A stretch of DNA of 48,856 nt from Candidatus Poribacteria bacterium (GTDB lineage: Bacteria; Poribacteria; WGA-4E; WGA-3G): the NCBI GenBank assembly GCA_026706025.1, contig JAPOZO010000073.1:1-48856 (forward strand), read 5' to 3'. Position numbers and translations under genes: made by a program. Every line of letters starts with the position of its first letter. Position 1 is the first letter of the stretch. The notes below the pieces were generated by a model. The model did not search any database, was not told where the DNA came from, and saw only the letters and a program-made list of their open reading frames with translations. This document shows, piece by piece, positions 40,443 to 46,737 of this stretch.

Positions 40443-40724
40443 ATGCGCGCGCTTTTTGTAACGTTGTCTATTGTTATAGGTTTTATTGGGTTGATTTTTA
40501 TCGTACGCGGTGGAACCCATCCTAACAAGTATCAGGGGGTTTTGGCGGAAAGCAAGACCGCGGTCCAGGTCACACAGATTTATACAGAGGCAACATATAC
40601 AATAACGGTCGGGATCGGTATTATGAGTGTTGCTGTCTTAGTCGCTGTTATTGGTATTCTCTTTCATACAACAAACAAGTCCTTAAATCCAGATACGCAA
40701 TCAGTAGACGATCCTGAAGTCTGA
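40443..40724 (+). CDS. Small two-helix membrane protein
   Basis: 93 aa; AAGGAA lies 6 bases before the ATG. It has two membrane segments (LFVTLSIVIGFIGLIFIV and TVGIGIMSVAVLVAVIGILF) separated by a 30-residue loop, and a short soluble tail. No known family is recognised. It lies between yfiH and yggS within the housekeeping block, but a 298-base gap before it, without a clear terminator, leaves its transcription unclear. Confidence 0.72.
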   Translation: MRALFVTLSIVIGFIGLIFIVRGGTHPNKYQGVLAESKTAVQVTQIYTEATYTITVGIGIMSVAVLVAVIGILFHTTNKSLNPDTQSVDDPEV

Positions 40725-41548: not shown

Positions 41549-41610
41549 AATGGAGGGGTGTTTTTGCTTGGGGATTTCTGTGTATTGCTTGGGCGTTTTT
41601 TCAGTTCTAC
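41549..41610 (+). repeat. Partial GCTTGGGTGTTTCT-family repeat, copy E
   Basis: GTTTTTGCTTGGGGATTTCT and a second TTGCTTGGGCGTTTTTTCAG lie just upstream of the proC ribosome site. They match the repeat at 3431 and 36361 only in their first part. Confidence 0.55.
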
Positions 41611-41623
41611 GGAAGGGCATATC

Positions 41624-42469
41624 ATGAGCGAAACCTATCTGAGCGAACCGCAAGGAATAATTAAAAACCTTCGATTAGGTGTCATAGGCGTTGGAAAGAT
41701 GGGCGGTATTGTCGCTCGCAGTATTGCTGATGTCGTATTCCCCGCAAAACACATTTGGGTTACCGACCTTGATAGTACCCTCGTCGAGCAGCTTTGCAAG
41801 GAAAAAGGCACCAGCGATGCCGGTGATATTGCTAACTTAGTAAAAAAAACAGATGTTATCTTCTGTGCAGTACCACCAGCAGCTGTCCCAAGTATTCTAC
41901 CACAGATTGCGCACAGTTTATCGGCACCACAGTGGCTCATAAGCATCGCAGCGGGTGTTACCACCACAACACTTGAGGCTTATTTTCAGACTGCACCACC
42001 GATTGTTCGGGTGATGCCAAACATCTCGGCAGCGGTCGGGGCTGCAATATCGGTACTAACCGCTGGCACTGCAGTGAATGAGACACATCTTGAAATCTCA
42101 CAGGAAATTTTCAACGCTTGTGGCACCTCGCTAATTATGGATGAACGTCATCTTGATGCTGTTACAGGGGTGAGTGGCAGCGGACCCGCTTATGTTGCCC
42201 TCTTCATTGAAGCACTCGCTGATGCAGCGGTACATGTCGGTATAGCTCGGGCGGATGCCCAAAAACTCGCAATCCATACTGTGTTAGGTGCGGCTACTAT
42301 GTTAGCCGAAACGCAAGAACATCCAGCGGTACTCAAGAATCGTGTTACGACACCTGGCGGAACAACCGCCGCCGGACTTCACGCGTTAGAATGCGGCGGC
42401 TTACGGGCAACACTCACAGAAGCTATTCTTGCTGCGACAGAACGAGCGAAAGAACTCGGTAACGCATAA
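41624..42469 (+). CDS. proC: Pyrroline-5-carboxylate reductase
   Basis: 281 aa from ATG 41624, chosen for GGAAGGG at 41611-41617 and family length; the open frame upstream is repeat sequence. The Rossmann motif RLGVIGVGKMGG is near the start, followed by VIFCAVPPAAV and the C-terminal signature SGSGPAYVALFIEALADAAV and TPGGTTAAGLHALE. It reduces pyrroline-5-carboxylate to proline with NAD(P)H in the cytoplasm. It is followed after a few bases by yggT, a common gene order. Confidence 0.96.
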   Translation: MSETYLSEPQGIIKNLRLGVIGVGKMGGIVARSIADVVFPAKHIWVTDLDSTLVEQLCKEKGTSDAGDIANLVKKTDVIFCAVPPAAVPSILPQIAHSLSAPQWLISIAAGVTTTTLEAYFQTAPPIVRVMPNISAAVGAAISVLTAGTAVNETHLEISQEIFNACGTSLIMDERHLDAVTGVSGSGPAYVALFIEALADAAVHVGIARADAQKLAIHTVLGAATMLAETQEHPAVLKNRVTTPGGTTAAGLHALECGGLRATLTEAILAATERAKELGNA

Positions 42470-42496
42470 TAATTGGAGCCTACAATAATAGAAACT

Positions 42497-42766
42497 ATGC
42501 CTATACACAACCTCGCTCGGTTCATCGCTCGATTGCTTGAATTTTACACATTAGTAGTTTTCGCAAACGCTTTGCTTTCTTGGTTTGTTTTCGGCACACA
42601 AAATGCAGTCATCAGGCAAATCTATTGGTTTACAAGTCGCATCGTCGATCCAGTTTTAAGCCCGATTCGGAACCTACTTGAACCCGTGTCTCGGAGCTTT
42701 GGTATTGACATTTCGCCTTTTATACTGATTATTCTTTTACAGATTCTGGCGCGGATGCTCTGGTGA
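42497..42766 (+). CDS. yggT: YggT-family membrane protein
   Basis: 89 aa from ATG 42497; an in-frame TTG at 42473 would add eight residues, and the true start is unclear. Two membrane segments: FYTLVVFANALLSWFVFG and ISPFILIILLQILARMLW, with the family loop IVDPVLSPIRNLLEPV between them. Relatives (YlmG, YGGT) act in division-site or membrane organisation. It sits between proC and the ileS-like gene, as in the conserved division/tRNA-synthetase neighbourhood of many bacteria. Confidence 0.9.
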   Translation: MPIHNLARFIARLLEFYTLVVFANALLSWFVFGTQNAVIRQIYWFTSRIVDPVLSPIRNLLEPVSRSFGIDISPFILIILLQILARMLW

Positions 42767-42853: not shown

Positions 42854-45610
42854 ATGGTTCAGAGACAAAAATACGAAGATATGAAAAAGCGAAACTCCCC
42901 TGCAAAAAACACGACGCGTAAACGGGGTAAAACCACGAAGCGAGAAGAGGAACTCCAGTTGGCGGATAGGAACCGCGAAAAAAACGTCTTGGATGTTTGG
43001 GCAAACGTTGATGTTTTCCCCCTCGCAAACAAAAAATCGAATACTGCACAGCGCACCGCGCCAGTAAGTTCGACACAACCGCAACACGCCCCTCAAACCG
43101 AAACCTACGTCCTTCGCGAAACGCCCACTTCCATTCATGCACTCACATTTGACACGCTTTGTAGAAAAATTTGCCAAGATGTCTTCCTCAAAGCGTCGTT
43201 AATGCAAGGACATCAGGTTACCTACGTACCCGTATGGGAAACCTATCCGCTTTGGATTGAGGAACGCATTATCGCGGAGGCAAAATCCAAATCTCCGATC
43301 AAACTCTCTGTTCTACGCAAGCGATGCCGCGCACGCCACAAACAGGAATTAGAAGTTCAAAAACAGAAGTTTTATCAACTCGGTATCTTTGCGGATTGGG
43401 ATGCTTCTCAGAAAACCCTTGAATCACGACAGGAAGCACGACTCATCGCTCTCATCAGCCGACTACGGGATTCCGATTATCTCCACGATTTACCACAACT
43501 CAGTCCATGGTGTCCGAAGTGCACAGCACCGCTCAATGAAGCGAATCTCCTACAAAAATCTGCACATGCTTTGAACGGGTACGTGAAGTTCCCTTTCAAT
43601 TTTGGGTTGGAGGAATTTGGCATTAATGTCTCCTTTTGCATCCGGATGCCACATCTCTGGGAGGTAGCCGGTACCGTCGAAATCGGGATTACTCAGGATG
43701 CTACCTATCTCCTCACTAAGCATGGAGAGGAATATCTCCTTTTTGCAGAACCGCAGCTTGAATATTTTTGTAAACATCTCACAAACGGGCAGCCTGAGCC
43801 GAAACCTATTAAGGAAATTAAAGCCACTGAACTCGCGCAATACACTGTGGCGCACCCGCTCTTTCCATCGAAGGAGTTGAAGATTACACCCATCCCTGAA
43901 ACGTTAATTACAGAAACTCCTGACGAGTCAACGTCTCTCTTAAAATCCGGTGTTATCCCGCTAAACCCAGCACATCATCAACCCAGTTACAATATCGCAC
44001 GGGTGTTAGAAGACATAAATGCTACCCCTATTTTCGATGAAACCGGAAGGTTCACTGAAGAAGCCGGGCAATTGTGTGGTTTATATCTCTTTGAGGCAGA
44101 AAAATTTATTATCCCGCAATTGGAGAAATATGGGGTCCTCCTAAAAACACATAACGACGAGATACACGCACCCCACTGTCCCCGATGCAAGGAATTAGCC
44201 GTTTTCCGACCCTGTTCAAAATGGGTGTTCTCTATTTCCAAAAATGATGCCACCAATCAACTTCTCAATGCTCAAGAATATTGGGATAATTATGGCGATA
44301 TACAAGATAAACGTATTGGCAAGGTCCGAGATATCGTCCTTAATTTCGGAGAATTACAAGTTTCAACACAGCGTCAATGGGGAATGCCTCTGCCAATCCT
44401 GCTCTGTGACCAGTGTGATGAACCTCTCACTGATAAAAATACACTCAATGCAATCCGCAATTCTATCCAGCGCAGCTTTGAATTCTGGTTCGGACTCAGC
44501 ATTGAAGAACTCTTGCCCACTGATACCCGCTGTTTAAACTGTAACTCAAGCGATTTTCGCAAAGAGGCGACCCTCATTGATAGTCATTTTGCTAATCTGC
44601 TTCAAATCATTGACAACTCTGACTTCAAGAAACCGCTCGGGGGCCACACCAGCGTCATGTTTGTACCACAAACAGGTATTGGTGATTCTCAGTGGACAAA
44701 ATGGTTAGCCGAAATTAGCGTCATCTCCGCTGCGCTTAGTAGAAGTCGCCCAATTAAAGAAAGTCAACCCTTTAAGCAACTAACGCTTAAAACGCTACCA
44801 AAAATTAGCGGCAAAATTCAGATTGAAGACGCATTTCTTAATAAATATCCAGCCGATGTGGTCCGACTTGTCGCGATAGCACCGAATATTGAAGCCAAAC
44901 AGGTGAGTTCCAAACAACTTGAGAAACTTGCCGAGGGATACCTCGGGCAATATCAGCAGCTCCAAGCACTATTCGATGATATAAGTGAGTACCTCTACCC
45001 GTTTCTACGTGATTCCGGAAAAGCGAGCGATAAGAAACAAAAGGATGCACCTGCGAAAGCCTCTAAAGATGAACAACGTTTCACCACCGCTAACGGACGC
45101 GAAGTTCAGGTCGATTTCCCCCGCACACCTACGCATACAGATATTGAAGCTCTGGGGGAGACCGCTGCTACTGGTAAAATACTTCCAATTGATTCGCTGG
45201 CAATAACTGTTACCGCGCAACTTTTGCAAGAGGTGCAACTGGCTTATCAAGCCGAGAATTTCTACGAAATGTGGACGCTGTTAACTGATTTTTGTCAAGA
45301 CGACCTTCGCTTTTATAGCCGCACGATGGAATCTCGTCCTACTACAACCCTACATGCGGCGCAAAGTATACTTTCAGAGATAACGACTGGACTGCTACAA
45401 CGATTCGCTCCCTTGACTCCTTTTTTAGCCGAACATTTTTATCGACGCATTTCTATAGAAGGCATGACCAGCGACCAGAGTATCTTTCAAGAAAACTGGC
45501 ACTCGCACTCGTCTCTGATTGGACAAACTCTGCAACCTTCCGATGGGAAAAAAGACGAGGCAAAAGCGGAATGGGAGGAGGTCAAGAGGGCATACGATGC
45601 AAAATCCTAA
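42854..45610 (+). CDS. Isoleucyl-tRNA-synthetase-like protein lacking catalytic motifs
   Basis: 918 aa, collinear with IleRS throughout: an N-terminal VLDVWANVDVF (as in the KFWEEIDIY start of IleRS); MQGHQVTYVPVWETYPLWIE (117-136, where IleRS has the WDxHGLPIE site); SPWCPKCTAPL (C220, C223); an editing-like region; APHCPRCKEL (C442, C445); QVSTQRQWGMPLP (502-514, where IleRS has ISRQRYWGxPIP); and an anticodon-binding-like end (LLQRFAPLTPFLAEHFYRRI). HIGH should fall at RETPTSIHAL (88-97) and is lost. KMSKS should fall at LPKISGKI (648-655) and is lost. The C-terminal zinc domain is short or absent. The start may be ATG 42881. It probably cannot make aminoacyl-tRNA, although tRNA binding may remain. 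lspA overlaps its end. Confidence 0.85.
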   Translation: MVQRQKYEDMKKRNSPAKNTTRKRGKTTKREEELQLADRNREKNVLDVWANVDVFPLANKKSNTAQRTAPVSSTQPQHAPQTETYVLRETPTSIHALTFDTLCRKICQDVFLKASLMQGHQVTYVPVWETYPLWIEERIIAEAKSKSPIKLSVLRKRCRARHKQELEVQKQKFYQLGIFADWDASQKTLESRQEARLIALISRLRDSDYLHDLPQLSPWCPKCTAPLNEANLLQKSAHALNGYVKFPFNFGLEEFGINVSFCIRMPHLWEVAGTVEIGITQDATYLLTKHGEEYLLFAEPQLEYFCKHLTNGQPEPKPIKEIKATELAQYTVAHPLFPSKELKITPIPETLITETPDESTSLLKSGVIPLNPAHHQPSYNIARVLEDINATPIFDETGRFTEEAGQLCGLYLFEAEKFIIPQLEKYGVLLKTHNDEIHAPHCPRCKELAVFRPCSKWVFSISKNDATNQLLNAQEYWDNYGDIQDKRIGKVRDIVLNFGELQVSTQRQWGMPLPILLCDQCDEPLTDKNTLNAIRNSIQRSFEFWFGLSIEELLPTDTRCLNCNSSDFRKEATLIDSHFANLLQIIDNSDFKKPLGGHTSVMFVPQTGIGDSQWTKWLAEISVISAALSRSRPIKESQPFKQLTLKTLPKISGKIQIEDAFLNKYPADVVRLVAIAPNIEAKQVSSKQLEKLAEGYLGQYQQLQALFDDISEYLYPFLRDSGKASDKKQKDAPAKASKDEQRFTTANGREVQVDFPRTPTHTDIEALGETAATGKILPIDSLAITVTAQLLQEVQLAYQAENFYEMWTLLTDFCQDDLRFYSRTMESRPTTTLHAAQSILSEITTGLLQRFAPLTPFLAEHFYRRISIEGMTSDQSIFQENWHSHSSLIGQTLQPSDGKKDEAKAEWEEVKRAYDAKS

Positions 45611-46100
45611 AAAAAACGCATGGCAAAATGTTATGCTTTTGATTTATGTGGCTGTGCCCGTGTTGATACTTGATTGGGGCACTAAGTGGTTGGTCCAGAA
45701 ACACATTACTCAGGTAACAGAGATAATCCCGATTATCCCCGGGTTCTTCAACCTTCGGCACGATAGAAATACTGGAGCGGCTTTCGGGGTACTCGCCGGG
45801 CATAGGGTCTTGCTGATTCTCATTACCATTGTCGCTTTGGTTTTCATTTTTTCCTATTACCTCCGATTCCGGGAGAGTCGTTGGATGCAGGTCTCGTTAG
45901 GTTTTCTACTCGGCGGTGCTGTTGGAAATTTCATTGATCGCCTCTATTTGGGGGAAGTTATTGATTTTCTTCAATTCGGTATAGTCAGCCAAGGTCTCTT
46001 TTGGCCCACCTTTAACGTCGCTGATATTTCTGTCTGCATCGGTGCAGGCATGCTGATTGTTTACCTGTTCCGACACCGTAATCAAGACCAGCAGGCTTGA
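45597..46100 (+). CDS. lspA: Lipoprotein signal peptidase (signal peptidase II)
   Basis: 167 aa from ATG 45597, 14 bases inside the end of the ileS-like gene, with GAGGTCAAGAGGG just before it. Four membrane segments and both catalytic Asp motifs are present: VGNFIDRLYLGEVIDF and FNVADISVCIGAG. The motif ILDWGTKWLVQKHI and the loop FFNLRHDRNTGAAFGVL are typical. It cleaves the signal peptide of lipoproteins at the inner membrane. The overlap implies translational coupling with the ileS-like gene, as with genuine ileS in other bacteria. Confidence 0.95.
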   Translation: MQNPKKNAWQNVMLLIYVAVPVLILDWGTKWLVQKHITQVTEIIPIIPGFFNLRHDRNTGAAFGVLAGHRVLLILITIVALVFIFSYYLRFRESRWMQVSLGFLLGGAVGNFIDRLYLGEVIDFLQFGIVSQGLFWPTFNVADISVCIGAGMLIVYLFRHRNQDQQA

Positions 46101-46182: not shown

Positions 46183-46737
46183 ATGTACAAGTTTCGCACC
46201 CAATTATTTCTAATGAGCATAGCTTTTCTCTATTTCGCACAACCGCACGCAAAAGCACAGTTTCAGCCAGAACCTCCAGCACAACACGAAGACCACGCCG
46301 ACTACAGCGAAAGTGCATTGCGTCGGTTTGAAATTATCACGTTGAGTTCCCTACCATTCACTGCTATTCACAGTTATCTCGCCGTTAGAGGGATAAAAAT
46401 GTATCGTGAGAATATATTCGCACCCGAATTGACACCGAGCGACTATCGCGTGGTTGGGATTGGGGCTGTCTCATTGTCGCTCTTCATCGGCGTGTGGGAT
46501 TGGTTACACACCCGCAATGTTGATCGATCTGCACCACGTGTGCCAGAACCGAAAGCACCACCGGTCGAAGAGGAAGATCCTGTTGAAGGAACTATCGCTC
46601 GTCTGTCCAAAACGGATCCACATACAGCAAGATATAAAGAGATATTACGACAAAACTCACTAAACAACAGACTGAATAGATGGGCGAACGATCCTGCCAT
46701 CGGTTTTGCGGTACCCCTCTTACAGGTCCGTTTCTGA
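46183..46737 (+). CDS. Hypothetical exported protein with membrane segments
   Basis: 184 aa; AAGGAGGGATCC immediately precedes the ATG, a strong ribosome site. A signal peptide ends at AKAQFQ. There are two possible hydrophobic segments (IITLSSLPFTAIHSYLAV and VVGIGAVSLSLFIGVWDW), then a Pro/Glu-rich stretch (PRVPEPKAPPVEEEDPVEG) and a mixed tail. It resembles short periplasmic or outer-membrane-associated proteins of spirochaete and Bacteroidetes type only in layout. No function is assigned. Confidence 0.75.
   Translation: MYKFRTQLFLMSIAFLYFAQPHAKAQFQPEPPAQHEDHADYSESALRRFEIITLSSLPFTAIHSYLAVRGIKMYRENIFAPELTPSDYRVVGIGAVSLSLFIGVWDWLHTRNVDRSAPRVPEPKAPPVEEEDPVEGTIARLSKTDPHTARYKEILRQNSLNNRLNRWANDPAIGFAVPLLQVRF

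Follow-up and report, generated by a model that had tools for sequence, protein, structure and literature searches.

Synthetase paralogues without catalytic activity have been described before, but to our knowledge they occur in narrower lineages than the one described below or as fragments. LeuRS-I of the Sulfolobaceae is a divergent, non-aminoacylating second class Ia copy present beside a working one, which still makes leucyl-adenylate and binds tRNA-Leu (PMC9437257). SbzA, the Ile transferase of Streptomyces, is an IleRS homolog found beside the housekeeping IleRS and mainly non-charging. It keeps the motifs HYGH and AMSKA and sits in a biosynthetic cluster (PMC12945691; PMC6331615), and it was modelled on the IleRS2-type enzyme of T. 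thermophilus (PMC6331615). SLIMP of eukaryotic mitochondria no longer aminoacylates but still has a role in the cell (PMC9437257), its parent being SerRS, a class II enzyme with an unrelated fold. For IleRS1 itself, a swapped HIGH motif abolishes catalysis, and Brkic et al. (2023) state that a natural IleRS1 with a non-canonical signature motif had not been found (PMC10485003).

In the 48,856 nucleotides of Candidatus Poribacteria DNA analyzed here (the window), the ileS site next to lspA is occupied by a gene, termed pIle, which encodes a complete IleRS1 body with all catalytic signatures missing and which is fixed at the ancestral locus nearly phylum-wide. Like LeuRS-I, pIle is a divergent and, as predicted from its motifs, non-aminoacylating class Ia copy beside a working one, but its ATP motifs are gone and it is found phylum-wide at the ancestral locus. 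Its likeness to SbzA lies in being an IleRS homolog next to a housekeeping IleRS, and to SLIMP in its descent from a synthetase. Set against the statement of Brkic et al. (2023), the pIle family, a descendant of IleRS1, lacks such a motif altogether. Labelling the pIle ORF as ileS would be a wrong annotation, and in pIle nature itself provides a test of the uses of an aminoacyl-tRNA synthetase body other than charging. In the open-access literature, no paper on an inactive IleRS in Poribacteria or on the pIle family was found.

Position, descent and predicted fold of pIle

The 918-codon frame reported in the original prediction is indeed intact and contains zero internal stops, and the overlap with lspA noted there amounts to 14 nt, the lspA ATG being located at 45597 and the pIle stop codon at 45608-45610 (Table 1). 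Since a Met equivalent to the ATG at 42881 opens most congener proteins, this ATG (MKKRN; 909 aa) is probably the true conserved start. A Shine-Dalgarno-like GGAGG for lspA sits within the 3′ end of pIle. Upstream, pIle is preceded by pgeF, yggS, proC and yggT; behind it come lspA, the gene of a conserved protein that matches no Pfam family, fmt and the gene of a PASTA protein. The order yggS-proC-yggT-pIle-lspA corresponds to the canonical place of ileS, which adjoins lspA in E. coli as well. A riboswitch or T-box leader for pIle was considered and rejected, as no Rfam family reached the threshold in the window and yggT fills the gap behind proC.

Table 1. Features of the pIle locus (positions in the window; residue numbers refer to pIle).
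Feature	Position	Strand	Evidence or remark
proC, 5′ neighbor of pIle across families	41558..42469	+	Pfam P5CR_dimer 7e-40
yggT, between proC and pIle	42473..42766	+	Pfam YGGT 6.1e-16
pIle, catalytically erased IleRS1-type pseudosynthetase	42854..45610	+	ORF, profile, structure, motif comparison
Lys/Arg-rich N-terminal tail, largely predicted disordered	42881..43093	+	pLDDT, family net charges
HIGH position, reads TFDT (98-101)	43145..43156	+	Alignment
GWDxHGLPIE position, reads VWETYPLWIE (127-136)	43232..43261	+	Alignment; Trp alone invariant
WCxxC of CP core (C220, C223)	43508..43522	+	C220 in 75/75
Family-specific motif P....GLE..G (247-256)	43592..43621	+	P247, G251, E253, G256 invariant
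Editing T-rich motif TTTPWT position, reads MPHLWE	43646..43663	+	Alignment
Editing His (P369) and Asp (S378) positions	43958..43987	+	Alignment
CxxC on CP return strand (C442, C445)	44177..44188	+	Alignment
RQRxWG and CP2 four-cysteine putative zinc ribbon	44354..44578	+	Lowest dN/dS of pIle
KMSKS region, deleted	44786..44818	+	Alignment
Helix bundle of anticodon-binding type, with retained fold and relaxed constraint	45185..45511	+	Pfam Anticodon_1 7e-11
lspA	45597..46100	+	Pfam Peptidase_A8 2.1e-40

That pIle derives from IleRS had been proposed from the sequence and is borne out by profile search, PDB match, tree and predicted structure. The protein matches the NCBIfam model TIGR00392 with an E-value of 3.6e-62, and its score of 210.7 bits is far under the cut-off of 621.4, a point in which it differs from IleRS1; a member of another pIle family reached 267.3 bits in a scan of 28 members, which is also below the cut-off. 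The best PDB match is IleRS1 of S. aureus (7.7e-40). A profile built from 75 copies gave 389 bits with the IleRS1 of Priestia and 364 bits with that of S. aureus, whereas IleRS2 sequences scored at most 233 bits. In a maximum-likelihood tree, the pIle copies group in a single clade (99/97), which falls on the IleRS1 side (98/99), and this placement did not change when four long or faulty rows were left out, among them Sinorhizobium (faulty) and Variovorax (long branch). Six IleRS1 references were usable for the tree, and long branches weaken the exact place of pIle among them; an AU test on the repeated tree, in which pIle was constrained with IleRS2 and the third IleRS type described below was left out, is weak evidence by itself. 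pIle descends from the IleRS1 rather than from the IleRS2 lineage.

AlphaFold2 models of the window protein (pLDDT 79.5, pTM 0.78) and of a distant member from family f5 (pLDDT 85.1, pTM 0.82) both present the multidomain fold of IleRS, including that of the CP1 domain. Compared with S. aureus IleRS1 (1qu3), the former gave a Z-score of 25.7 over 744 residues at an rmsd of 10.7, which perhaps reflects shifted domains in the model, and the latter a Z-score of 31.1 over 809 residues at an rmsd of 5.2. With IleRS1 (E. coli ileS; S. aureus 1qu2/1qu3; Priestia 8c9e) pIle thus shares the domain order and, over these 744-809 residues, the fold, as well as a WCxxC in the CP core as in E. coli, a partial RQRxWG, the helix bundle and the ileS-lspA locus. 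A loss not mentioned in the original prediction is that of the C-terminal zinc domain of IleRS1, which is absent from the window pIle, the IleRS match stopping near target residue 809. At the other end, pLDDT falls below 50 at residues 1-28 and 59-79. The N-terminal tail is basic in most copies of f1, the family of the window pIle, and not basic in f3 and f4; in the window protein its pI is 10.3 and that of the two Rossmann halves 9.2 and 9.4. The f4 proteins are acidic, with a median pI of 4.97, and have no basic tail.

Catalytic motifs and distribution in Poribacteria

In an alignment of 75 pIle copies with five IleRS1 references, the IleRS1 signatures HIGH, GWDxHG, KMSKS and TTTPWT are missing throughout. 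No copy (0/75) shows the H, G or H of HIGH at the respective columns, or the signature in either of its forms (HxGH or G/AxHH), the commonest tetrads being TLDT and TLNT. All 75 copies lack GWDxHG and, at its aligned columns, TTTPWT, and KMSKS has been either deleted or substituted in 75/75. The original reading of these sites was correct for VWETYPLWIE and for TQRQWG (505-510); the loss of HIGH and KMSKS was recognized as well, although the residues aligned with HIGH adjoin rather than coincide with the proposed PTSIHAL (91-97), and KMSKS is mostly deleted, PKISGKI marking the edge of the gap instead of replacing the motif. Still present are the Trp of GWD and part of RQRxWG, with WG in 69/75 copies, while 138 of the 260 columns invariant in the five references have disappeared from almost all deep members of the family. 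Motif absence predicts and does not prove inactivity; on this basis, pIle would make neither Ile-AMP nor Ile-tRNA.

Editing, one of the retained functions suggested earlier, does not agree with the alignment. The CP1 fold retained in the models would be in keeping with a trans-editing role, in which the former CP1 domain would clear mischarged tRNA by hydrolysis. However, no copy has the T-rich motif, a loss that the original prediction had not noted, and the catalytic residues are mostly gone as well, with the equivalents of E. coli H333 and D342 kept in 7/75 and 14/75 copies, respectively. With its active-site residues lost, editing by pIle appears unlikely, and the trans-editing explanation was rejected as highly improbable.

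The CP2 cysteines C518, C521, C560 and C563 are invariant in 75/75 copies and missing from the five IleRS1 references, which also lack P247 and G256 of the new GLE..G motif. These two residues as well as R535, R540 and C408 are new and specific to the pIle family. The CP2 cysteines are carried by some ordinary IleRS1 enzymes elsewhere. Their pattern suggests that they bind zinc or another metal.

A direct search revealed pIle in 77 of 85 Poribacteria genomes, with the fragments of G053 and G055 counted. In G061, a genome of a second class, a copy cut by the contig end lies at lspA and raises this to 78/85; presence was left undecided for four others (G068, G050, G059, and G060). The partial G061 copy has no KMSKS, which suggests that the catalytic loss most likely predates the split of the Poribacteria classes. 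As this copy keeps the C-terminal CxxC/CxxC finger of IleRS1, the C-terminal zinc domain was, on this reading, lost later from the family of the window pIle. Three genomes (G036, G039, and G038) are different in that pIle is cleanly missing between proC and a retained lspA, which indicates that its function is dispensable. The synteny yggS-proC-pIle-lspA is kept wherever contigs permit, and the same locus is found across families f1 and f3-f8. The reading frame is open in 75 copies from six families.

No Poribacteria relative with HIGH or KMSKS was found at this locus, so that the copy in the window is not a decaying allele of an otherwise functional gene, the outcome named in advance as speaking against a retained function. 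A contig scan detected close relatives of pIle in Poribacteria only; the Psychrobacter and Acinetobacter loci it also returned show about 22% identity, and those inspected encode ordinary IleRS. Relatives on plasmids are distant, all below 60% identity, and the matches listed are annotated ileS, with mupA dominating. One Variovorax plasmid (L194, 592-3135) encodes, beside a regulator gene, an 847-aa protein of the class I tRNA ligase family with about 35% identity to E. coli IleRS, which has HLGH but KYSKS.

Other IleRS enzymes in the same genomes

The original prediction had postulated a second, functional and possibly eukaryote-like IleRS, and such an enzyme is found elsewhere in the genome. 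It is a full-length IleRS2 of 1048 aa (contig C39 of G000, 968 bits) with GVHH and KMSKS. An IleRS above the cut-off, either IleRS2 or a third type, is present in 75/85 genomes, and all six single-contig genomes (G005, G010, G021, G028, G044, and G082) contain pIle together with another IleRS. None was found in G046, G048, G034, G062, and G065, and G049 has only a contig-end piece of a third-type IleRS; as all six are draft genomes, these cases are read as assembly gaps. Presumably, the charging of tRNA-Ile is done by the other IleRS. In the 20 IleRS2 of the genus that were examined (L141 and 19 further loci), GVHH, KMSKS and TTTPWT are intact in every case. IleRS2 belongs to the superfamily of pIle and occurs in the same cells, but differs in its intact motifs, its position elsewhere in the genome and its separate clade. 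In one genome (G078), a full-scoring IleRS2 gene occurs twice, on separate contigs (L182 and L183), due to either duplication or contamination. GVHH is the form of HIGH tied to mupirocin hyper-resistance (PMC10485003), and its presence in all 20 IleRS2 predicts that Poribacteria of the genus are mupirocin resistant.

In families f2, f4 and f7, the sole IleRS found is a third, divergent type that forms its own clade beside IleRS2. The sequences read from f4 and f7 (L143, L150, L148, L215, and L216) have GVHH and GFDCQG, and KMSKS is replaced in them by AMHKS, PMHKS or EMHKS. pIle persists in f4 and f7 despite the switch to this type. Because the gene is thus kept with IleRS2 as well as with the third type, a tie to one particular IleRS partner was rejected, and an IleRS-specific partnership is unlikely.

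Selection on pIle and its putative function

Within the genus, the median dN/dS of pIle is 0.158 (459 pairs, maximum 0.34), compared to 0.094 for proC, 0.100 for lspA and 0.057 for IleRS2. Purifying selection therefore acts on a gene whose catalytic motifs are conserved in none of its relatives, in agreement with the earlier claim of a retained function. Since the erased protein is still under strong selection, it has very likely acquired a role different from tRNA charging. A passive remnant, either holding the ribosome-binding site of lspA or simply decaying, would account for the lspA overlap and for the Shine-Dalgarno sequence inside pIle. Such a remnant is difficult to reconcile with frames open in 75 copies and six families, with dN/dS values of 0.03-0.23 in the folded domains except the SC segment, and with the three genomes that dropped pIle cleanly yet keep lspA. 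Decay was rejected in view of the 75 open copies and the dN/dS of 0.158, and the passive reading as a whole is largely refuted by the selection data and very improbable.

Constraint is distributed unevenly along the protein, with dN/dS values of 0.033 for CP2 together with RQRxWG, 0.071 for Rossmann-1, 0.112 for Rossmann-2, 0.151 for CP1, 0.227 for the helix bundle and 0.379 for the SC segment. For comparison with IleRS2, the same 20 genomes were used in 100 random pairings; NG86 values are approximate at the high dS involved, while the ranking of the regions was stable in all pairings. CP2 showed 0.034 in pIle (5-95%: 0.030-0.041) vs. 0.070 in IleRS2, Rossmann-1 0.068 vs. 0.023, and the anticodon helix bundle 0.217 vs. 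0.053. Of the five regions tested, CP2 is the only one under tighter constraint in pIle than in IleRS2, an indication that CP2 is a functional module.

The explanation we favour, as a probable though by no means certain one, is that pIle is an ancient pseudosynthetase, an ancestral IleRS1 that turned non-catalytic and works through a binding surface centred on CP2. The ancestral IleRS1 would have stayed at its original ileS-lspA site after charging had passed to other IleRS enzymes, and would have become non-catalytic most likely before the Poribacteria classes split, keeping the whole IleRS body and losing the formation of Ile-AMP and Ile-tRNA as well as editing. We infer binding rather than chemistry as the mode of action, because pIle has lost the parts that serve activation, transfer and editing and selection is seen on the body and on one module. 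The binding surface would comprise the putative zinc ribbon of CP2, the strand that carries RQRxWG and, adjoining them, Rossmann-1, and the partner may be a translation-related RNA, most obviously tRNA, or a protein. Its clean absence from three genomes counts against this explanation to the extent that it makes pIle dispensable. Stated more broadly, it seems somewhat more probable than otherwise that in this phylum-wide dead IleRS1 the focus of selection shifted away from the ATP site and the anticodon domain towards CP2, and that a new function, be it binding or catalysis, was fixed before the class split and kept through the change of the housekeeping IleRS.

Two narrower forms of this explanation differ in the partner. 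In the first, pIle would bind tRNA-Ile or another tRNA, for instance as a sensor of uncharged tRNA or as a tRNA chaperone. The predicted folding of the complete IleRS body, helix bundle included, the basic tail and Rossmann halves of the window protein, and the precedent of LeuRS-I, which binds tRNA-Leu and cannot aminoacylate (PMC9437257), are consistent with such a role. The relaxed bundle, the C-terminal zinc domain lost in the family of the window pIle and the acidic f4 proteins without basic tail disfavour a tRNA ligand, though it is the obvious one by descent, and the f4 proteins and the bundle likewise make RNA binding a less favoured role for the family as a whole. A tRNA binder is rather unlikely, though conceivable.

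As a third option, the Rossmann pocket may have acquired a new ligand. Rossmann-1 is fairly constrained and shows the new consensus TLDT/TLNT in place of HIGH, and an IleRS-like transferase exists in SbzA (PMC6331615). Transfer of the SbzA type was rejected since HYGH and AMSKA (PMC12945691) are missing in pIle. No biosynthetic gene cluster is found at the pIle locus either, where the neighbors are yggS, proC, yggT, lspA and fmt. Together with the many lost IleRS1-invariant columns, this makes a new Rossmann ligand less likely. Poribacteria are largely uncultured, and heterologous work is therefore the way into pIle.

The second narrower form of the favoured explanation, in which pIle would be a protein scaffold or partner subunit that binds another protein, such as a translation or envelope-biogenesis factor, via CP2, is about as doubtful as the tRNA binder. 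It would fit CP2 being the most constrained segment, with its four invariant Cys, as well as the family-specific R535, R540 and GLE..G; no candidate partner was found. A functional tie to the gene at 46183-46737 was rejected, as this gene is retained in the genomes that lost pIle. It is conserved 3′ of lspA in nearly all families examined, has no Pfam match and shows a dN/dS of 0.166 within the genus. Between pgeF and yggS, positions 40443-40724 contain a further ORF without Pfam match, encoding a membrane-like protein of 93 aa.
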